From an uncultured Nitrospirota bacterium (lineage in GTDB: Bacteria; Nitrospirota; Nitrospiria; Nitrospirales; UBA8639): DNA of 64,000 bases. The notes beneath the pieces are model-generated. The model searched no databases and had not been told where the DNA came from. It saw only the letters and a program-made list of their open reading frames with translations. Position 1 is the first letter of the stretch. Each line of letters opens with the position of its first letter. Shown one piece after another: positions 631-33,332 of the stretch. The stretch covers positions 1-64,000 of the forward strand of contig CAKZPV010000004.1 in assembly GCA_937139405.1 (NCBI GenBank). Reading direction: 5' to 3'. Position numbers and translations under genes: made by a program.

Positions 631-3600
631 ATGGTATCGGGCATGATCGAGAGCGAACAGAAAACGATGAGAAATGTGGCCCACGAGGTGTGTCCTCCCT
701 TGTCTCTCTCTCATGCATCTCATCAACGACGAATGACCGTGCAAGATTCCACGAGAGAGAAGCCGGGCACCAGCCAGCCAAAGATATCCTCACAGAAAAA
801 AAAGCCAGTGTTTCTACAGACCACGGGATATGGACAAGAAGCAGGGTTAGGTCTGCTGCTCGCTCTCGAACCCCGAATCATGTTTGACGGAGCCGCCTTC
901 CTTACCGGGGCAGAAGTAGTCCACGACCAAGTCACCCAAGATCTGGTGCCCGTCGATCAAGAGATCCATGCTGAGCCTGAGACGTTTGCAGACCCGTTCA
1001 CCAACAACATTGATCTCCTCTCAGCTTTGTCCGCCGTCACGACCCCTTCCGACCGCAAAGAAATCGTGTTTATTGATACACGCATGAAGGATTATCAGAC
1101 CCTCATGGAGGGTATCGAGCCCCAGGCTGAAGTCATTCTGCTCGATTCAACACGTGACGGCATTGAGCAAATCGCCGAAGCCTTACGTGGCCGCTCAAAT
1201 ATTGATGGCCTTCATCTCATTGCAGAAGGGAACACAGCCGAGTTGCATCTGGGCACCACGTTCCTTACGCAAGATGCGATTAGCGGCCAATATGCCAATC
1301 TTTTCACACAAATGGGACAAAGTTTATCAGCCGGAGCTGACCTGCTGATTTACGGCTGCAACTTTGGCGAGGGGGATACCGGCCTCGAGGCAATGCAAAC
1401 CTTAGCCGACCTAACGGGAGCTGATATCGCCGCAAGCACGGATCGCACCGGGCACGTCAGCGAATTTGCCAACTGGAAACTTGAAGCCTCCACCGGGTTT
1501 ATTGATTCTTCAATTGTCATTAACCAAGCCACCCAGGATACTTGGGAAGGGGTATTGGCCACCTACACCGTCACAACAACCACGGATGGCGGCGCCAACT
1601 CTCTCCGCCAAGCCATCATCGATGCGAATGCCAATGCCGGCACCGATACCATTACCTTCGTCGGATCCGGGACCTATCTGCTCACCATTGTCGGAACGGG
1701 CGAAAATGCGGCAGCCACGGGCGATCTCGACATCACCGATGATCTCATCATCACCGGCAACGGTGTAGGGTCCACCGTGATTGATGGCGGTGGGATCGAA
1801 CGCATTATTGATGTACGTTCCAGTTCCGTCGTTACCATATCAGGGCTCACGATCCAAGGCGGCAATTCTAGCGAAGGTGGAGGTATTAGTGTTGATAGCG
1901 GGACCGATGTAACACTTTCGAACGTGATCGTGAGTGGCAATACGACAGTTGGTAATGGCGGTGGAATATATAACGCCGCAACATTGTCACTCATAGATAC
2001 CGCGATAAGTGGCAATTCAGCGAACTTGGGTGGTGGCATCTTCAATGAGGGAACGATTGCTATCACCAGCTCGACTGTGAGTGGCAATATGGCCGACACC
2101 GGTGCCGGCCTATACCACGCCAATTCTTCCACAGATCTAACGTTAACGAACGCTACGGTGAGCGGAAACATCGCAACCTCTGCCGGTGGAGGTTTGTGGG
2201 CACAACAACCCGCAACGATTGTCAACTCCACGTTCACCTTAAACTCGGCGGATGCGGGCGGCGGGATTCGAACCCAAGGAGGGTCAGGAAGCGTTGACTT
2301 GCTCAACACCATTGTCGCAGGGAACACGGCAGGTAGCGCGAACCCGGATCTGCAAGGCAATTTTACAACCTCCGGGTACAACCTGATCGGGGACGGAACG
2401 GGCCAAAGTGATCTGGTCAATGGCGTCAACAATGATCAGGTTGGTAGCGGTGGATCACCCATCAATGCCCTGCTTGGCGGACTTGCTAACAACGGCGGTC
2501 CCACACAAACCCACGCTCTGCTAGGCGGCAGCCCGGCAATTAACACCGGCACGGCAACAGGCGCGCCCGCTGTCGATCAGCGCGGAATGGCTCGTGACGC
2601 AAACGTCGATATCGGGGCCTATGAAGTGACGGGCAACACCGCACCTACAGCCGACGCGGGCGGGCCGTACACGATCGACGAAGGCGATTCACTTGTCATC
2701 AATGCCTCGGCATCATCTGACCCCGATCCAGATACGCTTACCTACACCTGGGATCTGGACGGTGACGGGCAGTTCGATGATGCGAGTGGTGTCAATCCGA
2801 CAGTCACCTGGGCAACATTGAATGCGATGACGAACCCCATTAATGACGACGGCTCATATACAGTTGCCGTTCGGGTGGATGATGGGCAGGGTGGAGTCAC
2901 TACCGATTCGGCGGCTCTGACTGTCAACAATGTTGCGCCCACATTGACTACCACGGGTGCCGCAACCATAGCCAGCGGCAACAGCTATACACTCAATCTC
3001 TCAGCCAGCGATCCCGGCGACGATACCATCAGTGGCTGGACGATCAACTGGGGGGATGGGACCATCGACACGGTTGCAGGCAACCCGCCATCGGTCACAC
3101 ACACCTATACCAATACCGGACTGACATTCAATATTCTGGCGTCTGCCACAGACGAGGATGGGACGTTCCTACAGAACGAGCTACTGGTACCAAGATATAC
3201 TGCGGACAGCATCTTTCGCTTTGAAGAAACCACCGGCGCCTTTTTACAGCAGTTCGCTCCTCAAAGTGGGGGGCTAGATGATCCAATCCAAACAATCATC
3301 GGACCAGACGGCAATCTGTATGCCACTGGCGAGCGATCAGATAACGTGGTGCGATACAACCCGATAACAGGGGCAAAGATTGACGAATTCGTCACCGCCA
3401 ATAGTGGAGGGCTGAACAGCCCAGGCGGATTGACCTTCGGACCGGATGGCAATTTGTACGTGGGCAGTTATCAAACTAACGAAGTCCTGCGTTTTAATGG
3501 AACAACCGGTGCCTTCATCGATGTCTTTGCCACTGGCGTGACTCGTGCCTATGGTGTGACATTTGGACCCGACGGGAATCTCTACGTGAACAGCTTTACT

Positions 3601-6600
3601 GGGAACACTGTTGTCAAGTTCGATGGAACGACAGGCGCATCCCTCGGCACCTTCGTGACAGCAAATGCTGGTGGATTGGATACCCCGGAGCGCATGACCT
3701 TCGGACCGGATGGTCATCTGTACATCGCCAGTGCCGGATCAGATGAAGTACTCCGCTATAACGGAACGACCGGCGCGTTTATCGACGATTTTGTCACGGC
3801 CAACCTCGGAGGCCTGGCCTCACCAAGTGGGATAGCCTTCGGACCGGACGGAAATCTCTACGTTGGCAGTGAGACGAATGACAACATTTTGCGCTATGAC
3901 GGCTCAACGGGCGCATTTCTAGGTGAATACGTTTCAGCAGCGACGGGGCTTGATCGACCCGCTATGTTTACATTCTTGCCCGGCCATCAGGTCCTTGTGA
4001 CTAACGCCATCCCCACGCTGGACCTGGATGCGAATGATAGTTCCGGGGCAACGGGTAATGACTTTCAGTTCACCTTCACCGAAGGCGACGGCGCCACCGC
4101 CATTGCCGACAGTGATACCGATCTCGTGGATTTGGACAGCACCACGTTCGACTACATCACCCTGTCGGTCAGTGGGCTGTTAGACGGCAATGCCGAGACC
4201 CTTGTGCTCGATGGCGACACCTTTGCCCTGGCAACGGCGAATCCTGGACAAGACACAACCGGTGGGAATTACCGGGTCGTCATCACGACCGGGGCCGGCA
4301 CGGCCATCGTGACGATCACGAAACAGGGCGGTGGCACCTTCAGTGAAGCCGAGACTGAAACTCTGATTCAAGCCATTCAATACCAGCATACGGATACCAG
4401 CGCCCCCACCGATGGCGATCGACTGATCGATATAACCGTGAACGACGGCACTGACGACAGTGCAGCCGCCCGTACGACGATCAACGTCAATCCAACAAAT
4501 GATCCGCCGGTGATCACGAGTGATGGTGGTGGGGCCACGGCGATGGTGAATGCCCCAGAGAATCAGACCAGTGTGACGACAGTGACAGCTACAGATGTCG
4601 ATCTGCCGGCGAATACGTTGACGTTCACAAAAACTGGTGGGGCTGATGCCGTGCTGTTCAATATAGATAGTGGGACGGGCGCATTGACCTTTAGCGGTGC
4701 CCGAGATTTTGAAACATTCACGGATGCCAACAGCGATGGGGTATATGAAGTGACGGTGCAGGTAGATGATAGTAACGGTGGCATGGATACCCAAGCGATT
4801 AGTGTAACGGTCACTGACGTGGCGGAAGGGAATATCTTGACGGTCGATACGACGGCCGACTACGGGAGCATCGACTTACGGTACGGTAACACATCGTCCA
4901 TCGGTGCGCTATTGGGAGACAAAGGGACCGACAACTTTATCTCGCTGCGGGAAGCTATTGATGCTGCAAACAACACCGCCAACAGCGGGAGCCCGGACGA
5001 AATCCACTTCAACATCGCCGACAACGATCCCGGGCACCTCTATTATCAGGACGACTTGACTGGGGGATCGCTGTCATCCGTAGCAACCACGACCGTTAGC
5101 GACCCGATGATTGGTGACTTCGATCCCGACTACCCCTACGCCCAGCATAGTTGGTTCCGAATTGATCTGGGCTTTATCTTGCAGCCATTGGATATCACAG
5201 ATGCGGTAATCATCAATGGGTACACGCAAGCTGGGGCAACGCAAAACACGTTGTCGGTGGGCGACAACGCCGAGCTGAGGATCGAGCTCACCAGCAGTGG
5301 AAACGACGGCGACGACGGGTTGCGCATTCAATCGGGTGGAGCGGGCAGTTCGATCTTGGGCCTGGTGATCAATGACTTTCGCTTTGCAGGAATTAAGACC
5401 GAACAGGGAGCGGACAACGTCACGGTACAAGGCAACTTTATCGGCACGGATGTGACCGGCACTATCGACCTCGGGAACGGCGATGCTGGTATACATCTTC
5501 GGTCGAGTGACAATCAGGTGGGCGGCACAAACGTCGCCGATCGCAACGTGATCTCGGGCAATCAAGCGCGAGGCGTCACGACCTTCACCTTCGGTCCTAT
5601 CGAAACCGGCAACGTGATTCAGAACAACTACATCGGCGCGGACGCCACAGGTATCGGCGGTTTAGGAAATTCGGGTACGGCAGGTGTGCAGATATACAAC
5701 CAAGATGGGCTGCAACTACTTAATAATGTCATTGGGGACAACGCAAATGATGGTGTCAGGCTGCTGGACTCGGCCAGCATCGTCAACACCGTGATTCAGG
5801 GCAATTTGATCGGGGTTGGGGCCGATGGCACAACGAATTTGAGTCACACGAGCCATGGCATCCAGATCGATGAAGCCGCGGTCAATACAACGATCGGTGG
5901 AATTCTGGCGAGTCAAGGCAACACGATTGCTAACAATACTGGTGACGGGATTGCCATTAGCGCTGGAACTGGCACATCCATTCGAGGCAACAGAATCTTT
6001 AACAACGGCGGGTTGGGTATTGACTTGCTGGGCATTGATGGCGTCAACATTAACGATGCGGGGGACGGCGATAGCGGACCGAATAACCTCCAGAACTTCC
6101 CGACACTCACAACAGCTAAGATCAGCGGCACAGACTTGACCGTCAACGGCACACTCAATAGCACTGCCGGCACGACGTTCAACATCGACTTCTACGCATC
6201 AGTCACAGCAGATGGTAGCGGGCACGGTGAGGCGGAGCGGTATCTTGGCTCAGCCAGCGTGACCACCGATGGCAGCGGAAACGCCACGATTAGCGCATTG
6301 CTGAGCAGCGTCGGAGTTGGGGTGAGCGAATTCGTTACCGCTACAGCAACTGATTCCAATGGCAACACCTCCGAATTCAGTTTAACCGTCGCCGCAACAC
6401 TCGCAAACATACCTCCGGTAGCCATCCCTGATGGGTTTACGGTCAATGAGGGCTCAACGAATAATCTGAATCTGGCGGGTAATGATACCGATCCCGATGA
6501 TGGCTTGGATCTGACGAGCATTACTCTTGTGTCAGGGCCCACCAACGGCACCATCGACAGTATTAACAATGATGGGACGGTGGATTACACTCACAATGGG

Positions 6601-7722
6601 TCGGAAACCCTATCCGACAGCTTTACCTATACGATCAACGACGTGGGGGGAAACACATCGAACACCGTCACAGTGAGTTTGATCGTGACTCCCCAAAATG
6701 ATGCTCCCAGCATTACCTCGAATGGCGGGGGCGCGACGGCAGCTATTACCGTCATCGAGGGCAACACGGCCGTGACGGATGTGAATGCGACCGATGCTGA
6801 GAGCATGTCCCTCACCTACAGCATCATTGGCGGAGCTGATGCGGCGCTGTTTACCATTGACCCCACGACCGGGGTCCTCACCTTCATCACCGCCCCCAAT
6901 CTGGCCACACCAAGCGATGTGGGTGGCGACAACGTCTATGACGTGGTGGTGCAGGCCTCAGATGGCACGGCCGCCGACACTCAGGCGATTGCGGTTACCG
7001 TCACCAATGCGCCAGTCATTGTCCTTCCTCCTCCACCAGATCCTGCACCGGAATCTTCGCCTCCGTCAGACGAGGGAGACGGGGATGCAGGAGAATCGGA
7101 GGATGAGGCGCTTGGAGGGGGCCTAGGAATTGGTGCTCACTCAACAGGGGGGGTGTCCACTGGCAGTCAGAGTGCAACGGAAAAAGACTCGAAGGATTCT
7201 GACGGACTACACAACCTCACCGACCATGATTTGGCCGCGATACAACAGCTTCGAGAGAATACGGGCATGGTCGAGACCGCGAGTAATCTACTGGACGCGT
7301 TGGCGCAATCGTTTAACGGAGTGACCGTTAAGAGTGAGATTCAGTCGTTACTCGACTCATCAGGATTTCTGAGAGACTTGGATCAAGTCCGCGACGCGTT
7401 TGACGGAGCGACGGCGAGCGAAAAAACCTATATGGCATCCAGCATCGCAGCTTCCACCGGCCTGTCGATCGGCTATGTCTTTTGGCTCCTTCGAAGTGGT
7501 GTTCTTCTGACGGCCCTGCTCTCTACGGTTCCTGCTTGGCAGTTTGTGAATCCTCTGCTGGTCTTAGACACGCCTTCTAAGCACAAGCTGAAAATCAACC
7601 CAGACGAGCCAGAAGACGATTCCGTGGAGGCTATGTTTGAGAATCACGCGGTGCCAGCCGAGCCCTCTGACGCACACACAGAAAAGGCATATCAGACGAC
7701 CGAATCTCGGCACATCTCATGA
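631..7722 (+). CDS. Giant DUF4347 / beta-helix / PKD / beta-propeller / cadherin-like surface protein
   Basis: A 2363-residue mosaic protein. Order by approximate residue: LEPRIMFDGAA motif (79-89), typical of the N-terminus of large exported DUF4347 proteins; DUF4347 (143-305, with LLIYGCNFGEGDTG); a CSLREA-like right-handed beta-helix ending in a choice-of-anchor Q-type segment (310-670); PKD-like domains (670-840); a beta-propeller of repeated FGPDGNLY units (850-1120); cadherin/Ig-like modules (1130-1400); a second beta-helix (1404-1925); two more cadherin-like modules (to 2130); a proline/acidic linker; and a C-terminal region with a hydrophobic segment (about 2270-2300). No classical signal peptide is visible; export is probably by a dedicated route. 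Likely a surface adhesin or sensor. The stop overlaps the start of the kinase gene, so the two are translationally coupled. In DUF4347 the usual ISHG is IAEG here. Confidence 0.85.
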   Translation: MVSGMIESEQKTMRNVAHEVCPPLSLSHASHQRRMTVQDSTREKPGTSQPKISSQKKKPVFLQTTGYGQEAGLGLLLALEPRIMFDGAAFLTGAEVVHDQVTQDLVPVDQEIHAEPETFADPFTNNIDLLSALSAVTTPSDRKEIVFIDTRMKDYQTLMEGIEPQAEVILLDSTRDGIEQIAEALRGRSNIDGLHLIAEGNTAELHLGTTFLTQDAISGQYANLFTQMGQSLSAGADLLIYGCNFGEGDTGLEAMQTLADLTGADIAASTDRTGHVSEFANWKLEASTGFIDSSIVINQATQDTWEGVLATYTVTTTTDGGANSLRQAIIDANANAGTDTITFVGSGTYLLTIVGTGENAAATGDLDITDDLIITGNGVGSTVIDGGGIERIIDVRSSSVVTISGLTIQGGNSSEGGGISVDSGTDVTLSNVIVSGNTTVGNGGGIYNAATLSLIDTAISGNSANLGGGIFNEGTIAITSSTVSGNMADTGAGLYHANSSTDLTLTNATVSGNIATSAGGGLWAQQPATIVNSTFTLNSADAGGGIRTQGGSGSVDLLNTIVAGNTAGSANPDLQGNFTTSGYNLIGDGTGQSDLVNGVNNDQVGSGGSPINALLGGLANNGGPTQTHALLGGSPAINTGTATGAPAVDQRGMARDANVDIGAYEVTGNTAPTADAGGPYTIDEGDSLVINASASSDPDPDTLTYTWDLDGDGQFDDASGVNPTVTWATLNAMTNPINDDGSYTVAVRVDDGQGGVTTDSAALTVNNVAPTLTTTGAATIASGNSYTLNLSASDPGDDTISGWTINWGDGTIDTVAGNPPSVTHTYTNTGLTFNILASATDEDGTFLQNELLVPRYTADSIFRFEETTGAFLQQFAPQSGGLDDPIQTIIGPDGNLYATGERSDNVVRYNPITGAKIDEFVTANSGGLNSPGGLTFGPDGNLYVGSYQTNEVLRFNGTTGAFIDVFATGVTRAYGVTFGPDGNLYVNSFTGNTVVKFDGTTGASLGTFVTANAGGLDTPERMTFGPDGHLYIASAGSDEVLRYNGTTGAFIDDFVTANLGGLASPSGIAFGPDGNLYVGSETNDNILRYDGSTGAFLGEYVSAATGLDRPAMFTFLPGHQVLVTNAIPTLDLDANDSSGATGNDFQFTFTEGDGATAIADSDTDLVDLDSTTFDYITLSVSGLLDGNAETLVLDGDTFALATANPGQDTTGGNYRVVITTGAGTAIVTITKQGGGTFSEAETETLIQAIQYQHTDTSAPTDGDRLIDITVNDGTDDSAAARTTINVNPTNDPPVITSDGGGATAMVNAPENQTSVTTVTATDVDLPANTLTFTKTGGADAVLFNIDSGTGALTFSGARDFETFTDANSDGVYEVTVQVDDSNGGMDTQAISVTVTDVAEGNILTVDTTADYGSIDLRYGNTSSIGALLGDKGTDNFISLREAIDAANNTANSGSPDEIHFNIADNDPGHLYYQDDLTGGSLSSVATTTVSDPMIGDFDPDYPYAQHSWFRIDLGFILQPLDITDAVIINGYTQAGATQNTLSVGDNAELRIELTSSGNDGDDGLRIQSGGAGSSILGLVINDFRFAGIKTEQGADNVTVQGNFIGTDVTGTIDLGNGDAGIHLRSSDNQVGGTNVADRNVISGNQARGVTTFTFGPIETGNVIQNNYIGADATGIGGLGNSGTAGVQIYNQDGLQLLNNVIGDNANDGVRLLDSASIVNTVIQGNLIGVGADGTTNLSHTSHGIQIDEAAVNTTIGGILASQGNTIANNTGDGIAISAGTGTSIRGNRIFNNGGLGIDLLGIDGVNINDAGDGDSGPNNLQNFPTLTTAKISGTDLTVNGTLNSTAGTTFNIDFYASVTADGSGHGEAERYLGSASVTTDGSGNATISALLSSVGVGVSEFVTATATDSNGNTSEFSLTVAATLANIPPVAIPDGFTVNEGSTNNLNLAGNDTDPDDGLDLTSITLVSGPTNGTIDSINNDGTVDYTHNGSETLSDSFTYTINDVGGNTSNTVTVSLIVTPQNDAPSITSNGGGATAAITVIEGNTAVTDVNATDAESMSLTYSIIGGADAALFTIDPTTGVLTFITAPNLATPSDVGGDNVYDVVVQASDGTAADTQAIAVTVTNAPVIVLPPPPDPAPESSPPSDEGDGDAGESEDEALGGGLGIGAHSTGGVSTGSQSATEKDSKDSDGLHNLTDHDLAAIQQLRENTGMVETASNLLDALAQSFNGVTVKSEIQSLLDSSGFLRDLDQVRDAFDGATASEKTYMASSIAASTGLSIGYVFWLLRSGVLLTALLSTVPAWQFVNPLLVLDTPSKHKLKINPDEPEDDSVEAMFENHAVPAEPSDAHTEKAYQTTESRHIS
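7495..7637 (+). repeat. Near-identical direct repeat, copy 2 (pairs with 1-143)
   Basis: This stretch is 142/143 identical to 1-143 and encodes the membrane-like C-terminal segment of the giant protein. Such nucleotide identity between paralogues, ending abruptly, suggests recent duplication or gene conversion. Confidence 0.95.
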
Positions 7723-10229
7723 TGAACTTCCTTTCTACAAAATCTCGCATGGCCATTGGTCAGGTGAGTCTTCTTGTCAGCGTGCTGCTCACGGCAAGTT
7801 TGTTTGGTCTGTTGCCAGACCGCACCGGAGCGGTTCGGGATGGACGCGCAGCCTTGGCCGAGGCTATCGCCACCAACAGCTCGATCTTCATCACACAGAA
7901 AGATATCGACCGTTTAGAGGGAATCTTAGGTTTAGTTGTGGATCGGAACCAAGATCTCTTATCTGCCGCCTTGCGCACTGAAGCAGGTCATTGGCTTGTC
8001 ACCATCGGCGACCATGCAAAGCATTGGCAAGATGGCGATTCTGAGTTTGCGACCAATACTCAGATTGTGGTTCCCATTTGGGAGGGCGACACCAAATGGG
8101 GGCAAGTTGAACTCCGATTCGTTCCTTTAGTCAGCGAAGGCTGGTGGGGAACACTCACAGGTCCGCACACGCAATTGTTGGTATTTGTGGCTCTGCTGAG
8201 TTTCTTGGGTTTTTATTTATATTTAGGAAAAATGTTGAAACAACTCGACCCGTCACAGGCCGTTCCAGAGCGTGTCCGATCTGCTTTGGACACCATGGCA
8301 GAAGGCCTCCTGGTCTTAGACAGCAAGGAGCAAATCATGCTCGCCAATCGAGCCTTTGCTTCTTTGTTGACCACCACACCGGAAGCCTTATTAGGTCGAC
8401 GAGTAGGAGAGTTTCCGTGGTCGGACGCTGAAGACCGTCCATTGGAGCCAAGTACATGCCCTTGGCAGTTAGCTCTGCTCTCCGGTGAGGCGAAAAAGAA
8501 CCAGCGAGTTCATTTGGCTTTGCCACAGAGTGAACGGCTTACCTTCATGATTAACTGCTCCCCTATTCTTGGCAGTGCTGCGAAGAATGTTGGGGTCATG
8601 GTGAGCTTTGATGACATCACGCAATTAGAAGAGGCAGAGATTGAGTTACTGAAATCCAAGGAAGCGGCCGAAACGGCGAATCAAGCCAAGAGTGCCTTTT
8701 TGGCCAATATGAGTCATGAAATCCGTACGCCAATGAATGCCATTCTGGGTTTCACAGAACTCCTGAAGCGTGGATTCGGGCGTGACACGACGGAAACTCA
8801 CAAACACTTGGAGATCATCCATTCCAGCGGAAAACATTTGCTCGACTTGATTAACGATATTTTGGATCTCTCAAAGGTTGAATCAGGTCATTTAGAGATT
8901 GAACGCTTAGACTTTAATCCCTATCTCATCATCCAGGAGGTTGTGCGGGTATTGGGGGGAAAGGCCCAAGAGAAGGGCATTGGACTCGAGCTCCACATAC
9001 AAAATGATGTCCCCGAGACGATTAATGGCGACCCAGGACGAATACGCCAGATCGTGACAAACCTTGTCGGGAACGCTGTGAAATTCACTCAGCAGGGCAG
9101 CGTCACCGTGACAGCCTATGCCGAACAATTGTCCGGAGAGACGCTCCAGTTTCATATCGATATCGCAGATACCGGTATTGGAATGAGTCCGGAGGCCGCT
9201 AGCCAAATTTTTGAAGATTTTGTACAGGCCGATGTCTCCATCACCAGAAAATTTGGCGGGACCGGACTTGGCTTATCCATCAGTCGCAAATTCGCACAGG
9301 CTTTAGGTGGTGACATTACGGTAGAGAGTGAGCCTGGTACCGGTAGTGTATTCCGAGTGACCCTGGATGCCGGCAGTGCTGTCGATGTGACATGGGTCAC
9401 TCCTGAACAAGCCCTCATTGGCAACGACACGCACCTGACAGAAGAACGCACTGACTGGGTCTTTCCTCCTGCGCAGATCTTGGTTGTAGACGATGGCCCT
9501 GAAAATCGCGAATTTGTCAAAGTGGTGTTAGAGGGCTATGGGCTCACGATACATGAAGCTGGCAATGGTCGTGTGGCTGTTGAAATGGCCACCAGCACCG
9601 AGTACGACCTTGTCCTCATGGATGTCCAAATGCCCGAGATGGATGGTTTCACAGCGGCCAGAATAATGCGCGACCGCGGGCTGCAGATACCTATTATTGC
9701 CTTGACGGCCAATGCCATGAAAGGTTTCGAACAGGAACTTTTTGACGCCGGGTATTCCGAATATCTGACCAAACCAATCGATCTTGACCTCTTCATGGCC
9801 AAGTTGGCTGAGTTATTGAATGGGGAAACGAAACAGCAGCCACTTTCTGAATCGAGCATGTCTCAAACGTCTCAGGAATCTATCTCTGAAGTCGAGGATA
9901 CTTCGCCGATTGTTTCCAGACTCGGTCTCAATAGCTCAAAATTTTCCAAAGTGATTGCACGATTTGTGGACCGATTGGCAGAACAACTTCCTGCGATGGA
10001 TGAGGCCTTCTGGGCTAAAGATTTTGAGGCCTTAGCCAAATTGGGCCACTGGCTGAAGGGAGCGGGGGGAACAGTGGGATTTGACGTATTTTACGAGCCG
10101 GCCAGTGAACTTGAAATAGCAGCCAAGGCAGAGGATTTAGAATCCGTTGAACGACAGCTTCAGCTCATTCATGGGTTGGCAGCACGAATTGTGACCCAAG
10201 ATCAAGCTGTGGTGGAAGCCGCCTCATGA
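7719..10229 (+). CDS. Hybrid sensor histidine kinase (TM-sensor-TM-PAS-HisKA-HATPase-REC-Hpt)
   Basis: An 836-residue membrane kinase. Visible parts: transmembrane segment (about 12-33), extracytoplasmic sensor region (35-150), second transmembrane segment (about 152-170), PAS-like domain (190-300), HisKA with NMSHEIRTPMNAILGF and phospho-acceptor His333, HATPase with DTGIGM and GGTGLGLSIS, a receiver with MDVQMPEMDG (Asp635), and a C-terminal Hpt domain with LGHWLKGAGG (His777). This is a complete His-Asp-His relay with no DNA-binding output, so the final phosphate should go to a separate receiver; the REC-GGDEF-EAL protein downstream is the nearest candidate (inference). The start ATG 7719 overlaps the stop of the giant gene by four bases, which argues that the kinase reads a signal tied to that surface protein. 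Confidence 0.92.
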   Translation: MMNFLSTKSRMAIGQVSLLVSVLLTASLFGLLPDRTGAVRDGRAALAEAIATNSSIFITQKDIDRLEGILGLVVDRNQDLLSAALRTEAGHWLVTIGDHAKHWQDGDSEFATNTQIVVPIWEGDTKWGQVELRFVPLVSEGWWGTLTGPHTQLLVFVALLSFLGFYLYLGKMLKQLDPSQAVPERVRSALDTMAEGLLVLDSKEQIMLANRAFASLLTTTPEALLGRRVGEFPWSDAEDRPLEPSTCPWQLALLSGEAKKNQRVHLALPQSERLTFMINCSPILGSAAKNVGVMVSFDDITQLEEAEIELLKSKEAAETANQAKSAFLANMSHEIRTPMNAILGFTELLKRGFGRDTTETHKHLEIIHSSGKHLLDLINDILDLSKVESGHLEIERLDFNPYLIIQEVVRVLGGKAQEKGIGLELHIQNDVPETINGDPGRIRQIVTNLVGNAVKFTQQGSVTVTAYAEQLSGETLQFHIDIADTGIGMSPEAASQIFEDFVQADVSITRKFGGTGLGLSISRKFAQALGGDITVESEPGTGSVFRVTLDAGSAVDVTWVTPEQALIGNDTHLTEERTDWVFPPAQILVVDDGPENREFVKVVLEGYGLTIHEAGNGRVAVEMATSTEYDLVLMDVQMPEMDGFTAARIMRDRGLQIPIIALTANAMKGFEQELFDAGYSEYLTKPIDLDLFMAKLAELLNGETKQQPLSESSMSQTSQESISEVEDTSPIVSRLGLNSSKFSKVIARFVDRLAEQLPAMDEAFWAKDFEALAKLGHWLKGAGGTVGFDVFYEPASELEIAAKAEDLESVERQLQLIHGLAARIVTQDQAVVEAAS

Positions 10230-10599
10230 ACTGCCGTAACGCTGAATATTCGCGGATTTAGAGGTTTTTTTCCCATTCCATTGATCCCACAATTCCCTTC
10301 AAATGATTGAATGTCTTAGCTCAAACCAGGATAACCTTGTCACAATTCTTCATCTCCTACTAGCCCCCAAACAGCTATACCCTTTTGTTCATACTGGTGA
10401 ACGATATCCGCCTCTCTCAAATAATCTCAGGTTTTTCTCTGTTTTCCTTAGGATTGCATTGAAAAGATCCGAAAGGATATCTGTGAAATACTATTGGAGG
10501 TCTTCCACAGTGAAAACACCCCTGGGCTCTTCAGGTCTGGCTTGGGAATGGAGTCATTTTCAACTCTGATCCAAAAGGTCGAATGTCGATTTAAATTTT
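10230..10599. other. Intergenic region between kinase and REC-GGDEF-EAL genes
   Basis: About 370 bases. A run of seven T follows the kinase stop (10264-10270) without a clear GC stem. The open frame at 10303-10569 has no recognisable product or ribosome site and I do not call it a gene. Confidence 0.4.
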
Positions 10600-12441
10600 A
10601 TGTCCAGTGAGAAAAACAGAGAGGCAGGTGAGGTCGTTCAGGATTCCCCGGAATCATTGGGTGAAAATGGAGCGCCCAGAACGAATAACTTGCCGAATGA
10701 ATTACGAAGCGGTTCTGATAGCTTTTCCCAAGCGACGATTATGATGGTCGACGACGAAGCGACCACCATGGAAGTCATGCAAGCTTTTCTGGAGGATGCT
10801 GGCTATCAACACTTTGAGCTTCTAGAGGATTCGTCGCAAGCTCTCACGAAAATCGAAGAATTGCGGCCGGACATCCTGCTGCTTGATTTGGTCATGCCCA
10901 AAGTGACCGGATTCGAAATATTGGAGCAGATTAGAAGTCACCCACTGCTCAGCCATTTACCGATTCTTATCCTCACGTCGTCAACAGACGCCAATACGAA
11001 ACTTAAGGCCCTTGACCAAGGTGCGACTGATTTCTTATCCAAGCCCGTGGATCCAAGTGAATTAACACTCCGGGTTCGAAATACTCTTGCGGCTAAAGCG
11101 TATCAGAACCAACTCGCCTACTATGATTCACTGACCAAACTACCAAACCAGAGCTTGTTTCTTGACCGGTTGACCTGGTTTCTTCAACGTGCAGAACGAC
11201 AAAATGAGAATCTGGTGTTGCTCCACATCACGTATGACCAATTGAAGCAGATATCCAATACGTTGGGCCCGTTGGTCGGTGACCAGATCATTATCCAAAT
11301 TGCAGAACGCATGAATTCTTGCATTCGAAGTTCAGATATGTTCGGACATGGGAATGGAGCTCAGAGAGAAATTGATAGCTTGTTTCGGATTAGCCGGGAT
11401 GAATTTTCCCTTTTGTGTCCCAATATGGCGCATATCGAGGATTCGACGAAGTTGGCCTACAGAATTCTTCGGGTCATGGAGAAACCCTTTAATGCCAACG
11501 GGACAGAGATCTACATTGGACCTCATATCGGTATCGCAAGCTACCCAGTCGATGCGACTGAGATGGCTAAACTTATTCAGTGCGCCACAGGCGCAAGTGA
11601 CCAAGCGCAGAGCCAGGGCAAAGTGGGCTTTCATTTTTATTCGAGCGACCTGAATGCTCAGAGTTTGGAGCGTCTGCAACTAGAGGCAGATCTTCGTCAT
11701 GCCATCGAAGACAATCAAATGGTGTTACATTATCAACCGAAGGTCGACGTCAAGACTGGACGCATAAAAGGAGTGGAAGCACTGGTTCGCTGGCAGCAAC
11801 CTGACGGAAGCCTTCGATTCCCCGATTCTTTCATTCCCTTGGCTGAAGATACTGACTTGATCCTCCCCCTCGGCAAATGGGTTCTCCACGAGGCCTGCAC
11901 TCAAATGGCACTGTGGAAAACGCAGGGGTTGGAATTGCAAGTTGCTGTGAATCTTTCAGCAAAGCAATTTCGTGCTAATGATTTAGTGCACCTTGTCAAT
12001 CAGACGTTATTAACCCACGACTTGGATGCACAATATTTAACCCTAGAGTTAACTGAAAGTCTGGTCATGGAAAATCCCGAACAGGCCGTGCTGACCTTAA
12101 ACCAATTGATCGGTTTGGGAGTTAAACTTTCCATCGATGACTTTGGCACGGGCTATTCATCTCTCAGTTATTTGAAACGATTTCCTCTTCATGAGTTGAA
12201 GATCGACCGTTCCTTCCTCATGGACATCACGAATGATCCGGAAGACCGTGCGTTGGTGTCAGCAATGATTTATTTGGCTCATGAATTTAACTTGAAAGTG
12301 GTTGCCGAAGGCGTAGAGATGCAGGACCAACTTGATATGCTTGTCGATCTGAATTGCGACGAATACCAGGGGTATTTCTATAGTCGACCAATTAGCGTGT
12401 CAGACCTCGCTCCCATGCTTTTACAAGGCACATTGGCATGA
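10600..12441 (+). CDS. REC-GGDEF-EAL response regulator, probable c-di-GMP phosphodiesterase
   Basis: A 613-residue protein. An N-terminal receiver (about 45-165) has the acidic pair MMVDDE and phospho-acceptor Asp96 in LLDLVMP. A GGDEF-type domain (about 175-350) has SRDEF (265-269) in place of GGDEF, so diguanylate cyclase activity is unlikely. The EAL domain (about 365-605) keeps EAL (393-395), NLSAKQF, LELTES, DDFGTGYSSL, LKIDRSF and VAEGVE, the set needed for metal binding and hydrolysis of c-di-GMP. The degenerate cyclase domain may act as a regulatory GTP-binding module, as in other composite proteins. It follows the hybrid kinase, a plausible phosphodonor via its Hpt domain. No ribosome site stands out before ATG 10600. 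Confidence 0.92.
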   Translation: MSSEKNREAGEVVQDSPESLGENGAPRTNNLPNELRSGSDSFSQATIMMVDDEATTMEVMQAFLEDAGYQHFELLEDSSQALTKIEELRPDILLLDLVMPKVTGFEILEQIRSHPLLSHLPILILTSSTDANTKLKALDQGATDFLSKPVDPSELTLRVRNTLAAKAYQNQLAYYDSLTKLPNQSLFLDRLTWFLQRAERQNENLVLLHITYDQLKQISNTLGPLVGDQIIIQIAERMNSCIRSSDMFGHGNGAQREIDSLFRISRDEFSLLCPNMAHIEDSTKLAYRILRVMEKPFNANGTEIYIGPHIGIASYPVDATEMAKLIQCATGASDQAQSQGKVGFHFYSSDLNAQSLERLQLEADLRHAIEDNQMVLHYQPKVDVKTGRIKGVEALVRWQQPDGSLRFPDSFIPLAEDTDLILPLGKWVLHEACTQMALWKTQGLELQVAVNLSAKQFRANDLVHLVNQTLLTHDLDAQYLTLELTESLVMENPEQAVLTLNQLIGLGVKLSIDDFGTGYSSLSYLKRFPLHELKIDRSFLMDITNDPEDRALVSAMIYLAHEFNLKVVAEGVEMQDQLDMLVDLNCDEYQGYFYSRPISVSDLAPMLLQGTLA

Positions 12442-17830: not shown

Positions 17831-18562
17831 ATGGTCACAACTGTATTCAGTGTATTTTGATGTTGTCTCGTCATAGAATCCCTCTTACCAGGATGGACGC
17901 TGCTTAAAGTAAAGACCTGGCCCTTACGCGTGATCCTCGTCAATCTTGTTCAAATTGCCATCGTCTGGATGGCCGGATTCACCTAGGAATCTTGGCTGTC
18001 ATCATGGTCTATTCTTCAGCTCTCTGCGCACTTGTCAGCAGTACCAGGCGGGCTGTTCGCTTATTTCTCGGCAACCTTTGTTTTCTATTGGTGGCATCGT
18101 TGGCGACATGAAGTGCAGATACTTTGGCTCGCCTTCCACCAAATACACCATAGCCCTCAACGATTGGAAGTCATCACATCGTTTTATAAACATCCCGGCG
18201 AGATGGTATTCAATTCTATTCTTGGAAGTCTCATCGTCTATTCTCTCCTTGGACTTTCAGTTGAAGCAGGTTTCATCTATACCACCTGCACGGCTGTAGG
18301 AGAATTCTTTTATCACACGAATATTCGCACGCCACAATGGATCGGTTATGTTTTTCAACGCCCAGAAATGCACCGAATTCATCATCAACACCAGTACCAC
18401 AAGAACAATTATGGGGATATCGTCTGGTGGGATATGCTTTTTGGAACCTACGAAAACCCTGCAACCTGGGATGATGTTTGTGGCTTTGAGGAATACCAAA
18501 AGCAGCAGCTACTGCCGATGTTAGCCTACAATGATGTCCATACCCTACATGAAAAAGACTAA
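17831..18562 (+). pseudogene. Fatty acid hydroxylase / sterol desaturase family gene interrupted by two stop codons
   Basis: A single reading frame of 244 codons from ATG 17831 to 18562 encodes a full-length member of this di-iron membrane family, but contains TGA at 17858-17860 and TAG at 17984-17986. The frame resumes with family-like sequence after each stop (ESLLPGWTLLKV, then ESWLSSWSIL). The downstream 176 codons keep all three histidine clusters: HRWRHE, HQIHH and HRIHH. The context at TAG (AGFT, stop, ESWLS) suits a conserved Trp, so TGG to TAG is the likely change. An alternative TTG start at 18032 would give a shorter product lacking the first membrane segments; I think this is a decayed gene. 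About 250 bases upstream (17580-17830) hold nothing I recognise. Confidence 0.75.
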
Positions 18563-26927: not shown

Positions 26928-28213
26928 CTAGGAATCGCTTGAATCCGTACTTTCTTTCCGAGCATCAAGAACCTTAAGTTCCAGCCCTTCGATTTCCTGA
27001 AGGGTTTTACCGGCAATGCCCTGAAGGTCGCCGTACATGCCGACAGTAGCCTGCATGACGCGATCAATCTGTGTCTCTCGTTTGGCCCACTGCTTCATAA
27101 TAACTTTGCGTTCCTTTTCCAAATCTTCTTGCATCGTTTTAAAAGCCTCTGCAATAGCCTCCACTCGTTGACGAAACCGTGGCCCCATCAAGTAGTCATA
27201 GACCATTTCCATTTTAGTCTGTTGCCCCTCAGTAGCCTGTTTCGCAGCAGTCACTTCCAGCAGACCTTCCGTAAAGCTATCGCCAGAGGAAGGGCCTCTT
27301 TGGGATGCGTAACCCAGACTCCCACCTTGAAATCAAAAGTATCCACATCTTTCGGTAACGTCTGACTCACAATCACCGCCAGTTCCGCTTTGGCTTGCCG
27401 CTGATCTTCCCGCAATTTCACCAACCAGCCATCACTCCAGTTTTTGGTGCGCTTGGATTCCCAAAGAATCGTTCCACAAGCTTGGCCTAACGGGCCGGTC
27501 ACATGTTGAAGGACATCTCCTCCATACTCACCCTTCGGCACCGGCTGAATGTGATCCAAGGGGAATTTTGTAGACAGGAGAGCTTCAAGTTCTAATTCCT
27601 GCACCTCTCCTTGAAGTTGTTGGGAACCCTGTTCAGCTTTGCGCTTCAATTCTTCGACTTGTTTTTTCATCGAAGAAATGGTCTGCTCAGCTTCCATGAG
27701 CTTCAACTTCGATGCATCGTCAGCTTCTTTTTTAGCTTGTTCGCGTGTAGCTGTCAGCCCCGCCTGCACCCGTCTTTCAATAGTGAGGTCAAGCTCACGC
27801 TTGGCATCATCTAATTCCCGTTGCTTGCGAAGCAAATCGGCCTGGACTTTTTGCGCTTCGGCTAGCTTGTCATCGCGCTGCTTAAGAATAGTCTGTAACT
27901 CAATAAGGTCTTTCGATTTCTGTTCCAGATCGTTAGCCAGCGCGAGTTTGGCTTTCTTCGATTCTTCAGCAGCAATACGCGTACATTCCAACTTAAGTTT
28001 GTCAGCTACTTGTTCATTAATAGTTTCCTGAGCCTTCGCTAGCGCCACTTCGCGTTCCTGTATTCCGACTTCCCGCTTGACCGATTCCGCTTCTTTTTGC
28101 GCCATGCGTTGCTCATAGTCGCGTCTGGTTGTTTCAATCAGCGGTGCCGCCAAAGATTCGGTGAGTTTGATTTCGGTCTTGCATCTTGGGCAGGTAATTG
28201 TTGGTTCGGTCAT
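26928..28213 (-). pseudogene. DUF2130 coiled-coil / PD-(D/E)XK nuclease-like gene with a one-base frameshift
   Basis: Two overlapping minus-strand frames make one DUF2130 protein of about 428 residues. The first (28213 to 27251) has a zinc-ribbon CPRCKTEI, a long coiled coil (about 30-215) and a core with GEYGGDVLQHV, LWESKRTKNWSDGW (Glu252-x-Lys254) and EDQRQAKAELAVIVSQ, which fits a PD-(D/E)XK nuclease fold. It breaks off after ALRKV. The second (27254 to 26928) begins inside the same conserved region and reads TAAKQATEGQQTKMEMVYDY to the usual end. One base is missing near 27263-27264: adding one after GT restores RKVLLEVTAAK. The stop and the GTG of the second frame overlap (GTGA), so two polypeptides could be made; a sequencing error is also possible. 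The TIR gene is 14 bases upstream. Confidence 0.8.
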
Positions 28214-28227
28214 TGAATGCTTATCGC

Positions 28228-28716
28228 CTACCTAGACACGACTTTATCTAACCGAGCTTCGAGCTGACGAAAGAGTTCGAGCGCAAATTGATCGCGCTGT
28301 GTTCCTGAACATTCGCCATACGCTTTAGACGAGGCAAAACGTGGACGATCGAGTCGAAAGATTTGTGTACGCTGCAACCCTTTTAAATCATGTCGATCTA
28401 AATCGATCGGTTGCAGCAACACCGGAATCACGGACTTCCCTCCACTTTTTAGAAATTTTGGCAATTCATGGTCTTGAATGTATTGCGACCCCAAAAATGC
28501 CGGGCTGATCAGCACCAAACCCACGTCACATTGAGCGAGAGCCACTTGAATTTCTTCATGCCATTTTTCTCCTACAAGAATATCGGCATCTCGCCAAAAG
28601 ACGTACTGATAGAGTTTAGACGGCGCGGCCTGTTCTTTAAACTTTTTTAAAAACCGTGTCGCTAAGTCCCTATTGGCACGGGCATAGGAGACAAAAACCG
28701 TAATTTTCTTTTTCAT
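28228..28716 (-). CDS. TIR domain protein
   Basis: A 162-residue single-domain TIR protein: KITVFVSYARANRDLA at the start, then VFWRDADILVGEKWHEEI, VGLVLISPAFLGSQYI and FLKSGGKSVIPVLL. The Glu54/Glu55 pair after Trp52 is in the place of the catalytic Glu of NAD-cleaving TIR domains. Bacterial TIR proteins often act as NADase effectors in phage defence. It is immediately upstream of the DUF2130 gene (14-base gap, same strand), so the two form a pair. No separate sensor domain is present, so sensing would have to come from the partner (inference). Confidence 0.88.
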   Translation of the reverse strand: MKKKITVFVSYARANRDLATRFLKKFKEQAAPSKLYQYVFWRDADILVGEKWHEEIQVALAQCDVGLVLISPAFLGSQYIQDHELPKFLKSGGKSVIPVLLQPIDLDRHDLKGLQRTQIFRLDRPRFASSKAYGECSGTQRDQFALELFRQLEARLDKVVSR

Positions 28717-28830: not shown

Positions 28831-29922
28831 TCATGTTGATTGAGCGAGAGTGAGGCCGAGACCGGGATGACCAGTAATGGAGTGAGTATCGAGCCTGCCC
28901 TCTTTGCCGAACATAAGAGGTGTGTCAAAAATGTCGTGTTCTAATAGATAGGTACCGAATGCCCCCTCCTGAGCCAGAAGAATATCGCGGAATTGGTTAG
29001 CGACGGTGAGCGCCGCTCGAGTGAGAATACTCGTCTCCCCGACTTGTGCACCGATGATGATAGGTATACCCATGGCTTTAGCCTGTGCGGCAATCACTAA
29101 AGAGCGGAGAAGGCCGCCCATTTTGGAAATTCGGATATTAATGATCCAAGATTGAGGATCAGCTTGCAGATACTCAAATTGGTCTTCGCGTAAAAAGCTC
29201 TCATCGACAATTACAGGAATCCCAAGCTGTTGGGTGATCTGGCCGCACTCATCATAATCTCCAACTTGCAATGGTTCTTCGATCCCAAAGAAAGGATATT
29301 CCAGACTTTTGAGATAAGTTATCGCCTCAGCTGCGGTATGCCAGAGATTGTTCGCATCTAGGCGGATGCGAAGATTTTTAATTGGAAGATGTTTGAGGAA
29401 CTCTATTTTTTGTCGATCATGTTCAAGGTGGCCCATGACTTTCACTTTGAAATCAACAAACTCTAATGCCGAAAATTGGCTCGCCTGTTTTTTAAACGAG
29501 TGAATGTTCTCCGTTCCTAAAACAGCAGAATACTGAAATTGGCCGGTTAATTCTTGAAGATTCAGAAAGGATTCTATAGATTGCCTATTTTCTTGACCCC
29601 AGCAATCAAACAAGGCCAGTTCGACAGCACACCAACTGGCAGGATTTGCATCAATCAATTGGCTATTCTTGGTCGCCCATGATTGTAGATCACCGAAGTT
29701 CTTGAACTGCTGCCATGTCTCCCGATACGAATGAAAAAAACTCATGGCGGTTTGTATGGTCTCTCCCGTGACATATTCTCTGGGGCATCCCTCCCCTACA
29801 CCAACTACGCCAGTAAGTGATTCTGCTTTGACGAGGATACTTTCAGTAGTGGAACGGGTGACCGTCGCATGTGTGAATGCCTGCTTAAACGGAATATCTA
29901 ATTCATGGATGGTGAGGATCAC
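28831..29922 (-). CDS. Enolase-superfamily enzyme (MLE / dipeptide epimerase / OSB synthase type)
   Basis: A 363-residue enzyme. Catalytic residues sit where expected for the muconate-lactonising subgroup: Lys159-x-Lys161 in DFKVKVMG, metal ligands Asp189 (RLDANN), Glu215 (IEEPL) and Asp240 (VDESF), and Lys267 in ISKMGGL. The N-terminal capping domain (VVGVGEGCPREYVTGE) is complete. Members epimerise dipeptides, lactonise muconate or make o-succinylbenzoate. No menaquinone or aromatic degradation genes are present; an amino-acid-linked substrate would suit the neighbouring GH3 gene (inference). It is the last gene of a four-gene operon, 13 bases after GH3. Confidence 0.87.
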   Translation of the reverse strand: MILTIHELDIPFKQAFTHATVTRSTTESILVKAESLTGVVGVGEGCPREYVTGETIQTAMSFFHSYRETWQQFKNFGDLQSWATKNSQLIDANPASWCAVELALFDCWGQENRQSIESFLNLQELTGQFQYSAVLGTENIHSFKKQASQFSALEFVDFKVKVMGHLEHDRQKIEFLKHLPIKNLRIRLDANNLWHTAAEAITYLKSLEYPFFGIEEPLQVGDYDECGQITQQLGIPVIVDESFLREDQFEYLQADPQSWIINIRISKMGGLLRSLVIAAQAKAMGIPIIIGAQVGETSILTRAALTVANQFRDILLAQEGAFGTYLLEHDIFDTPLMFGKEGRLDTHSITGHPGLGLTLAQST

Positions 29923-29935
29923 GGAAAGATTTCGT

Positions 29936-31576
29936 TTAGCTTCTCACATACGGAGCAAAGTCAAATGTACAATCCTTAGCGTATTGCAATTTCACGACTT
30001 TGAATTGATCATCCCGTTGTCCTTGTTGAAGCGCATGGGTTTTATACGCATCCCCAGTCCCAGGGCGCAGATAGACCACGCGAAGAGGCTGTAATCTTCC
30101 ACTCTCTCGCTTGGCTTGAAATTCCACATTGGCTTTCCCCATTTGTTGTTCTAATTTGTATCCTGCGAAAAAGTCCAACGGCGGGTGTTCAAGGTAAAGA
30201 GTATATTGCAGCTCCTGTGGATCAGCCACCATGACATAAAAATCCACGGTCGTTTGATACGCCTGTTGAATGCCCTGAACCGCATCCATCACGTGAAATT
30301 CATACAGTTTTTCTCCCGTGAGATTCGTGACGCCTCTACCTTTTTGCACGAAGCGAATCGTGGGTGTCTGGTAGAACCAACCGGTGACCTCAATCAGATC
30401 ATTAATGAAATACCGATAGAGCCCATTCATAGTCGTCGCAAGTACATAGTACCGCTTACCGACTTGCAATTCTTCTAGCGTAATGGCATTCGGACGATCA
30501 GCATCCCAATCTGTTTGTTCAACGAATTCAAAGAAATTTTCATGAAACGTGGGGACGCATTGATTCGTCTGAACATTGACATTCAAACTTCCCAGAAATT
30601 CACTCGACAAATACCCCATTTCGACAATCGCAGTCTTTTCTGGAAGTCTCGATTGAAGTTTGGGAATTACATCTCCACAATTCCCTCCCGTCCAAGTAAC
30701 AACGGCCCTCAAATTAGGCCACAGTGCCCCAACCGTTAACTGTTCTTCATGACCAATGAAAGCTTGAAGATCACGCAGTCGTCGCTTACCGACACTGGGA
30801 AACGGAGCAACCCAATCAGGAGTTTTTTTACGGTTCAAACCCAGCTGCTCTACGATTTGTAAGAAATGTCTACGACCCACTTCTAAGAGTTTGATAAATG
30901 TCGAAGGATTGGCGGTGGCCACAACCGATAAGTCTGGTTCAGATAACGCCCACGCCGCTAAATACAGATATTTTTGCTGGTAATCTGTAATGCCATGAAT
31001 CGTTTCCGGAAGAATTTGGCTCGATTGGAGGACAGATGGTAAAGCTGACGCTAATAATCCTGACATTGACCCATACGGCGTTCCAGACTCTAAATAGCCT
31101 TCGATTACTTGTCCGGCAAGCACCAACATCTTTCCATGAAAAATTTTTGAAATGCCCTGATATTGTGCATACGTGCTTAAGAGTTGGTAGTGCTGCAGCG
31201 TTCGGTTGGTGTGAGGAAGTATCGGAATGATTTTGGGTTTCCCTGTTGTGCCACTCGTCAACGCATAACTGACTGGTTGATCGTGATTGAGTTGAAGCTC
31301 CTTCGTATCTTCCTGGGCTTGAAGATAGGGCCGGAAGTCTTCATAGGTATGAATGGGCACACCCAAACGGAATTCATGATATCCACGAAGGCGGCTCAAC
31401 CGATACTTCTTTCCAAACGTCGTCTCCGCTTGATACGCCAGAATACGTTCGAGGAGCGCTTGTTGCACGACTTGAGGATTTTGAGTGTGCTTGAGAAACG
31501 GATTCCACCATCGGTGAGTGACCCCTGCCATGTGCGCATGGACTTGCGCAGTATGTCCGATGCTAAAAATACTCAT
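29936..31576 (-). CDS. GH3-family acyl-adenylating amido synthetase
   Basis: A 546-residue protein of the GH3 family, best known in plants for joining amino acids to jasmonate or auxin. The ATP-binding motif YALTSGTTGKPKIIPI, the acyl-side region VVTWTGGNCGDVIPKL, the conserved EMGYLSSE and the hinge GLYRYFINDLIEVTG are all present, and the length is normal. Bacterial members are largely uncharacterised. It should activate a carboxylic acid with ATP and pass it to an amine or other nucleophile. Its first four bases overlap the stop of the fatty acid hydroxylase gene (ATGA), so they are coupled, and an enolase-superfamily enzyme follows. Confidence 0.88.
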   Translation of the reverse strand: MSIFSIGHTAQVHAHMAGVTHRWWNPFLKHTQNPQVVQQALLERILAYQAETTFGKKYRLSRLRGYHEFRLGVPIHTYEDFRPYLQAQEDTKELQLNHDQPVSYALTSGTTGKPKIIPILPHTNRTLQHYQLLSTYAQYQGISKIFHGKMLVLAGQVIEGYLESGTPYGSMSGLLASALPSVLQSSQILPETIHGITDYQQKYLYLAAWALSEPDLSVVATANPSTFIKLLEVGRRHFLQIVEQLGLNRKKTPDWVAPFPSVGKRRLRDLQAFIGHEEQLTVGALWPNLRAVVTWTGGNCGDVIPKLQSRLPEKTAIVEMGYLSSEFLGSLNVNVQTNQCVPTFHENFFEFVEQTDWDADRPNAITLEELQVGKRYYVLATTMNGLYRYFINDLIEVTGWFYQTPTIRFVQKGRGVTNLTGEKLYEFHVMDAVQGIQQAYQTTVDFYVMVADPQELQYTLYLEHPPLDFFAGYKLEQQMGKANVEFQAKRESGRLQPLRVVYLRPGTGDAYKTHALQQGQRDDQFKVVKLQYAKDCTFDFAPYVRS

Positions 31577-32454
31577 AGTGATACCCTGTGTTTATCGGCG
31601 TTAGGCGAAAATGGAGCCCTGATTTGTTCAAGAAAGCCTGAAGGATACTTTCTATTCAACAATCCTAATTCTTGCACATTTCGCCCTTTAGGCAAATACC
31701 AAGTTCCAAACACCAAATCCCAAATAATGAGATTATTTCCATAATTATGATTGGATTCTTGCGTGATCATCGAATGATGCCATCGATGCAATTCAGGACC
31801 ACTGATCACATAATTCAACATGCCAAAACGCAAATCAATATTGCAATGCTGAAAAAAGCCATTGATGGCATAACAGACCACGTACAGTCCAAGCACTTCT
31901 TCTCCCACTCCTACTAATAAAAATGGGAACGTATCGAGGAAAACTTGCAACCCTTTATCAATAGGATGAAACCGCCCGACATTCAGCCAATAAAGTTTAT
32001 GTGGGGAATGATGCACAGCATGAAATCTCCAGAGCGGGTCCCATTCGTGCGCCCACCGGTGCAACCAATAGCGAAAGCCATCTGCCACCACCATCATGAG
32101 TAGCATTTGCAATGGAACCGGCCAATGAGTCGGCCACCAACCTTCAACATTCAGGCGATGTCCATAAAAAACTTGTAACAGAATCCATACCACTGAAACA
32201 GTCAGAAGTTTGGGAAAAACACCTTGAATGAGAGCCATAAAGAGGCCATCTTGCACAATCTCCTGTTTATCAGCCCACCATTCTTCCCGATGAGGATATT
32301 TCCGTTCCAAACACACAATCATAACGGCTCCAACAATAACTGGCAGATATATCGCAAATTGAAGCTCAAAATGATTCTCAAAAAGCAGGTAATGAAATGA
32401 AATGCCAATGGCTAACACGAGAGGATAGATCCCATATCGTACAATCACCTTCAT
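31573..32454 (-). CDS. Fatty acid hydroxylase / sterol desaturase family membrane enzyme
   Basis: A 293-residue membrane protein with three to four hydrophobic segments and the eight-His di-iron pattern: HRWAHE, HAVHH and HRWHH plus a later NHNYG. Members hydroxylate or desaturate lipids. Start choice: the frame is open to 32577, which would overlap the upstream gene; ATG 32454, just after the upstream stop, gives the usual family start. It is coupled to GH3 by a 4-base overlap. It differs from the broken paralogue at 17831-18562. Confidence 0.88.
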   Translation of the reverse strand: MKVIVRYGIYPLVLAIGISFHYLLFENHFELQFAIYLPVIVGAVMIVCLERKYPHREEWWADKQEIVQDGLFMALIQGVFPKLLTVSVVWILLQVFYGHRLNVEGWWPTHWPVPLQMLLMMVVADGFRYWLHRWAHEWDPLWRFHAVHHSPHKLYWLNVGRFHPIDKGLQVFLDTFPFLLVGVGEEVLGLYVVCYAINGFFQHCNIDLRFGMLNYVISGPELHRWHHSMITQESNHNYGNNLIIWDLVFGTWYLPKGRNVQELGLLNRKYPSGFLEQIRAPFSPNADKHRVSL

Positions 32455-32459
32455 CCAAG

Positions 32460-32945
32460 TTATTCTCGGTCTATCGGTGATAAGGATTGAGAACCTCGGC
32501 AATGAAATCGGCCATAGAACATCACAAATGAAGCTAGAACCAAATGAAATACAGTGGGCACCGTGGCCCCAAACCAAAAATGATCAGGTGCTATCGTCAA
32601 CCCAACAATCAATCGGATACACATGCTTACCAGATAGATGATTCCCAAGGTAAACAGGATTATTCCTTGTCGTCTAGAAGGAATAATCGTTCGATTTTTT
32701 ACATTCCAAACAATCCGCACGCAAATCAGAAGGATTAGCCCTTGTACCGCGACTAACTCCACATAGAGCAGCGCCCCGCTGTGCCAAACCGCATAGGGCG
32801 GAAGAAAATTGACGGGATATACGAATTGAACGAGTTGTGCGATCACTCGAAAAGCAAACAGACCGGTTAAGACCAAGAGAACCGAGGCATACTGTCTGGC
32901 TATTATCTCGCTATCCGTGCCAACGCCTTTTCTCAATTTTCTCAA
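32460..32945 (-). CDS. Four-helix membrane protein of unknown function
   Basis: A 161-residue protein with four hydrophobic segments (ASVLLVLTGLFAFRVIAQLV, LVAVQGLILLICVRIVW, GIILFTLGIIYLVSMCIRLI, FHLVLASFVMFYG). I do not recognise a family. The start is a TTG (32945) with a good AGGAGAG (32955-32961) nine bases before, and no suitable ATG exists. It ends five bases before the hydroxylase start and is therefore the first gene of the GH3 operon, perhaps a membrane partner of the hydroxylase (inference). Confidence 0.72.
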   Translation of the reverse strand: MRKLRKGVGTDSEIIARQYASVLLVLTGLFAFRVIAQLVQFVYPVNFLPPYAVWHSGALLYVELVAVQGLILLICVRIVWNVKNRTIIPSRRQGIILFTLGIIYLVSMCIRLIVGLTIAPDHFWFGATVPTVFHLVLASFVMFYGRFHCRGSQSLSPIDRE

Positions 32946-33332
32946 GAAAACGTTCTCTCCTGAGCCCGTTAATCTTCAGGTCAAACCGAAGGGGACGATA
33001 CCTAGCTCCGTAAAAGGTTCGCCCCAAAAAAGGAATTAACAGAACCAATGCCTAACCAACTCGCTTCAAGATGGGTATCTGTTTTTGACAAAGTTTCCCT
33101 AGGCATACAAAAGAAATAAGATACAATAACCAATAATTCCGAACATCACATAAGTCATAAACGTCAGTTCTTGATTTTGCCTGGCGACACTTAACAACTA
33201 AGTAGAATCAGGTGATGATCTAGTGGCAAACATTACTATCAGACTACACAGTTTTTTCTGTTAGAACAATTTCGTCGCATCCTAATAGGTTTAGACATGG
33301 AATAGAATTCGCATCGAGGGAAGTCATCACTG
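32946..33332. other. Divergent intergenic region before the SDR gene
   Basis: About 390 AT-rich bases that must contain the promoters of the GH3 operon (minus) and of the SDR gene (plus). I see no gene and cannot place the promoters with confidence. Confidence 0.4.

Follow-up and report, generated by a model that had tools for sequence, protein, structure and literature searches.

What might a bacterial operon produce in which a gene of the GH3 acyl-acid amido synthetase family is packed together with genes for a membrane protein, a fatty acid hydroxylase and an enolase-superfamily enzyme? We analyzed such a locus in a stretch of 64,000 nucleotides (the window; positions 1 to 64,000 of contig CAKZPV010000004.1, assembly GCA_937139405.1) from an uncultured Nitrospirota bacterium with a genome size of 4.46 Mb and a completeness of 98%. 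A first-pass annotation of the window had described the four genes as an operon and suggested hydroxylated fatty acyl amino acids or a modified membrane lipid as the outcome.

The operon occupies positions 28831-32945 on the minus strand and is transcribed in the order TM161-HYD-GH3-ENO. TM161 (32460..32945) has a TTG start and encodes 161 residues with four predicted helices. HYD (31573..32454) comprises 293 residues, counted from an ATG at 32454 within an open reading frame spanning 31573-32577. GH3 (29936..31576) encodes 546 residues, and ENO (28831..29922, GTG start) an MLE-subgroup enzyme of the enolase superfamily with 363 residues. The intergenic gaps of 5, -4 and 13 bases agree with the close packing described in the first-pass annotation. 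Its family assignments also hold: the GH3, FA_hydroxylase and MR_MLE_C domains all score above their Pfam cut-offs, and TM161 is a small membrane protein belonging to no Pfam family. Just upstream lies the broken remnant of a fifth small reading frame (32992..33182, minus strand; ~85 residues with two hydrophobic stretches). Among same-genus relatives it is open in two loci (L002, L015) and nearly open in a third (L004); it is interrupted in L003 as well as in the window, and tblastn against a set of further loci gave no match. It is not part of the conserved core.

The proposal depended on the four genes being linked beyond this one genome, and they are. The complete set was found in the same gene order in 21 Nitrospirota genomes, namely 15 from a sample of 396 Nitrospirota genomes together with genomes of the same genus; in two of the 21 (G162, G327) it is interrupted. 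The GH3 cut-off was passed in 19 of the 396 sampled genomes, 15 of which contain all four genes. In the window and the eight related loci first examined, the order TM161-HYD-GH3-ENO is constant and the gaps range from -8 to +15 bases; intact four-gene loci in general keep to this order and spacing. Since the four proteins are conserved at ~47-81% across genera and families in the same order, the arrangement is not due to chance. Evolution has kept the four genes together as a single unit. In the two interrupted copies (L049 in G162, L057 in G327), GH3, ENO or HYD is frameshifted or broken, reflecting either decay or assembly errors.

Two families contain the operon in two unrelated synteny contexts. 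In the family of the window it is flanked by an SDR gene and by TIR/RmuC genes. In the second family it lies among other genes, with transposase-like genes adjoining in one member (L018). Over 19 loci, the pairwise identities measured for one of the four proteins track those of the others with correlation coefficients of 0.83-0.93, as expected for co-inheritance; the species tree is reflected in these values as well. As judged by eye, neighbors recurring beyond the four genes reflect lineage-specific synteny only. Genes for TIR-domain, RmuC-like and coiled-coil-like proteins (26928-28716, minus strand) are conserved together beside the operon site in most same-family loci examined, including some that have no operon; the TIR protein is 80-92% identical.

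A search of 41 relatives found close orthologues of GH3 and of HYD in an identical set of nine genomes. Outside these nine, orthologues of TM161 and ENO occur only as remnants (G016, G018) or are cut by a contig end (G015). Five genomes of the same genus (G019, G010, G003, G017, G020) show a clean empty site of ~155-165 bases between the SDR and TIR genes. Remnants are present in three further same-genus genomes: TM161 and ENO are both broken in G016, TM161 is open and ENO reduced to its last part in G018, and 28 ENO codons are left in G014. After the loss of HYD and GH3 the leftovers mostly decay, as a single pathway predicts; the exception is the open TM161 of G018.

GH3 is the sole member of its family in the genome. 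The N-terminal, central and C-terminal domains (PF03321, PF23571 and PF23572) scored 149.3, 72.3 and 43.3 bits, each well above a cut-off of 23.6 bits, and the nucleotide-binding motifs TSGTTGKPK, YLSSE and GLYRYxxND are all intact and aligned across the four-gene loci. The best relatives of solved structure are plant enzymes. GH3 shares the domain architecture and the three ATP-binding motifs with plant GH3.15, GH3.12, JAR1 and GH3.5, but is distant from them (93 bits at best), is embedded in a bacterial operon, and has a substrate pocket that is not comparable by sequence. The plant enzymes act on jasmonate, auxin and benzoates.

Bacterial GH3 enzymes are numerous, with over 7500 matches (PMC12493201). 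We found only one worked out in the literature: OlsH from Singulisphaera acidiphila, a GH3-like enzyme described in 2025, uses ATP and Mg2+ to form N-acyl-ornithine from a free, preferably non-hydroxylated fatty acid; for further GH3 homologues the authors anticipate different amino acids (PMC12493201). The general idea of an acyl amino acid product is therefore sound. The accompanying statement that no such pathway had been described is partly outdated; it holds for the four-gene set, which is undescribed in the literature we found, and it overlooked the ornithine lipid pathway of the GH3-like OlsH with OlsI (PMC12493201). The operon GH3 reaches 94.3 bits with the OlsH model NF052613, against an equivalog cut-off of 620 bits. 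Other bacterial GH3s score 77-115 bits, among them 81 bits for one from a Streptomyces polyketide cluster. Since the operon GH3 scores no better than unrelated bacterial GH3s, the use of a fatty acid is not established by its sequence.

HYD matches FA_hydroxylase (PF04116) with 99 bits, above the cut-off, and its di-iron histidine clusters HRWAH, HAVHH and HRWHH are intact. OlsE, the nearest curated family, hydroxylates the ornithine headgroup of membrane ornithine lipids in rhizobia and Agrobacterium (PMC3972451). HYD aligns collinearly over the full length of the OlsE model NF052566 (profile positions 3-287 of 293) with 206.7 bits, and the HYD proteins of relatives score 184-194 bits. As a control, other FA_hydroxylases of the same organisms reach only 66-85 bits. 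By these scores HYD is clearly nearer to OlsE than the other hydroxylases are, though it stays below the equivalog cut-off of 475 bits and, unlike OlsE, shares an operon with a GH3 gene. An OlsE-like function would suit the lipid-acting hydroxylase of the first-pass annotation. HYD is 32-37% identical to its rhizobial matches, and the two of these that were scored against the OlsE model exceed its cut-off. A second FA_hydroxylase-like reading frame in the window (17987-18559, plus strand, 191 residues) scores 66 bits with the OlsE model.

A soluble product is possible but doubtful. In such a pathway GH3 would conjugate an amino acid with an aromatic or short acid, ENO would epimerize the conjugate, and HYD and TM161 would tailor or export a signal or specialized metabolite. 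The plant enzymes as best solved relatives of GH3 and their small-molecule substrates point in this direction, as do the bacterial GH3 in a Streptomyces polyketide cluster and the patchy, dispensable nature of the operon. Against it stand the specific likeness of HYD to OlsE, an enzyme of membrane lipids, and the fact that OlsH, the only characterized bacterial GH3 found, makes its N-acyl amino acid from fatty acids.

The operon could also represent a plain variant of the OlsH ornithine lipid pathway, combined with an OlsE-type hydroxylase and with ENO as an incidental passenger. OlsH and OlsE are indeed the nearest NCBIfam models of GH3 and HYD, and the genome has no OlsB-type enzyme. Both proteins, however, score far below the curated cut-offs (94 of 620 and 207 of 475 bits) and thus are not assignable to OlsH and OlsE. 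Like the OlsH/OlsI(/OlsG) system, the operon combines a GH3-like, ATP-dependent amide synthetase, recognizable by its three nucleotide-binding motifs, with genes for lipid tailoring. Unlike that system, it contains neither the α/β-hydrolase OlsI nor the methyltransferase OlsG, as judged by Pfam for the four genes and by eye for the recurrent neighbors, and it has ENO, the OlsE-like HYD and the small membrane protein TM161 as additional components. Moreover, no four-gene copy lacks ENO, and elsewhere GH3 and ENO are paired in the absence of a hydroxylase. We therefore regard a plain OlsH variant as quite unlikely.

The MR_MLE_C domain of ENO (PF13378) scores 94 bits, above the cut-off. An alignment with other ENO proteins and with dipeptide-epimerase-like paralogues shows an intact catalytic set consisting of K159xK161, D189, E215/216, D240 and K267, which comprises the two catalytic lysines and the three acidic metal ligands of dipeptide epimerase (AEE). 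Residues K161 and K267 correspond to K162 and K268 of YkfB (PMC5808125). The top NCBIfam match of ENO is the menC model TIGR01928, which could suggest an o-succinylbenzoate synthase of menaquinone synthesis located here by coincidence. We rejected this assignment, which is extremely improbable: the score of 86 bits lies below the cut-off of 200 bits, MenB is absent from the 98% complete genome, and ENO is missing from many complete relatives and disappears along with the operon.

The best solved relatives of ENO are 3jva, 2p88 and 1jpm, all remote (93-120 bits); 2p88, which we take to be an N-succinyl-amino-acid racemase, scores 96-106 bits. With these L-Ala-D/L-Glu epimerases and N-succinyl-amino-acid racemases ENO shares the fold family, the K-x-K motif, the second lysine and the Asp/Glu/Asp metal ligands. 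It differs from them in distinct G(A/C)QVGE and RxYVTxE loops and in the absence of the DxD motif after the barrel, which binds the amino end of the dipeptide. At this position ENO reads QEGAFGTYLLEHD, compared with LDLDxPLL in five paralogues from relatives and DFDA in 1jpm. The motif is missing in every aligned GH3-linked ENO; a gap in this region can be moved, and a conserved DxD appears in neither alignment. Its absence fits a substrate lacking a free amino end. At the level of motifs this argues against a plain dipeptide as substrate and would be compatible with an N-acylated amino acid. Two arginine residues of the capping loops, R23 and R48, do not vary among the four-gene loci, and two more distant loci (L043, L044) have them too. 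As a hint, they may suit an anionic side chain or group better than the cationic headgroup of ornithine.

If ENO instead epimerized the amino acceptor, e.g. a dipeptide, before its acylation by GH3, the product would be an acyl-dipeptide lipid with a D-residue. The dipeptide epimerases 3jva and 1jpm among the best solved relatives speak for this, and aminolipids with serine-glycine or taurine-ornithine headgroups have been described (PMC12493201). We nevertheless consider it unlikely, as the ordinary paralogues in related genomes retain the DxD motif that the aligned GH3-linked enzymes lack. Remote matches of ENO in a plasmid collection are mostly annotated as dipeptide epimerases.

The two distant loci just mentioned come from a genome of the same family (L043, G398) and one of the same class (L044, G384; a contig of only 3.3 kb). 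In both, a GH3 with 33-36% identity lies directly beside an ENO with 29-31% identity, in reversed gene order and without HYD and TM161. Their ENO proteins have the G(A/C)QVGE, EGx(F/Y)GTxLL and RxYVTxE loops in common with the operon ENO, unlike the ordinary dipeptide-epimerase-like paralogues. Since distant genomes carry the pair alone, the coupling of GH3 and ENO looks like the core of the system.

Based on the motifs and the gene neighborhoods we tentatively favor, with slightly less than even confidence, a compact pathway leading to an N-acyl amino acid that is hydroxylated and possibly inverted at its stereocenter; this product would probably be an aminolipid associated with the membrane. 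As its family and motifs suggest, GH3 would use ATP to activate a carboxylic acid, a fatty acid being the most likely choice, and couple it to the α-amine of an amino acid. The resulting N-acyl amino acid would offer a free carboxylate and an α-proton, the targets of two-base MLE-subgroup enzymes. ENO could remove and return the α-proton of this carboxylate, so that the stereocenter of the GH3 product would be inverted or equilibrated; the free acceptor molecule would be an equally plausible substrate. The OlsE-like di-iron enzyme HYD would hydroxylate the amino acid headgroup or the chain within the membrane, presumably assisted by TM161 as a membrane partner. In keeping with this route, an OlsB-type acyltransferase (PF13444) is absent from the genome. 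The operon contains no gene for an OlsI-type α/β-hydrolase or another O-acyltransferase, which leaves a two-chain lipid unaccounted for.

A more specific version of this pathway, which we put forward as speculative and rather doubtful, assigns ENO to lipid biosynthesis: on an ancestral GH3-enolase core, it would invert the α-carbon of the N-acyl amino acid made by GH3 and so lead to D-configured, hydroxylated acyl-amino-acid membrane lipids by an undescribed pathway. The operon thereby raises the question of D-amino acid stereochemistry in aminolipids, and its conserved linkage of GH3 to an enolase of the epimerase type and a hydroxylase resembling OlsE points to a concrete, assayable pathway. 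We found no paper combining "dipeptide epimerase" and "GH3", nothing useful on ornithine lipids in Nitrospira, and no description of lipids of the proposed kind in Nitrospira; the product could mark the group. A Pho-box might be expected upstream, because such a lipid could replace phospholipids under phosphate limitation; in 20 loci the scores were no better than those of shuffled sequences.

TM161 had no match in Pfam or in a further family search. AF2 models calculated from five-sequence alignments were of low confidence for TM161 (pLDDT 64) and poor for ENO (pLDDT 56), and a Foldseek search with the former returned nothing at E<=0.001 (best E 0.5). Across 20 four-gene loci 31 residues of TM161 are invariant, including His122, His134 and His148.

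GH3 genes also occur in other surroundings. The plasmid collection contained five remote matches with 21-26% identity, among them unannotated ones from Vibrio and Burkholderia, and neither ENO nor a hydroxylase was linked to GH3 in the annotated match examined, which is from Streptomyces. There (L059, Streptomyces sp. SGAir0924 plasmid, 1-11434) GH3 belongs to a type I polyketide cluster that also has genes for an aminotransferase, a P450 and a threonyl-tRNA ligase, the last possibly a self-resistance copy. Two other Nitrospirota loci (L045:7723-11333 and L058:9038-13823) contain GH3 genes without ENO. Near GH3 both encode a protein of 378-416 residues, alike by eye and GNAT-like in appearance, and L058 also has apparent Rieske oxygenase and fatty acid desaturase genes. 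These two look like different GH3-based systems.
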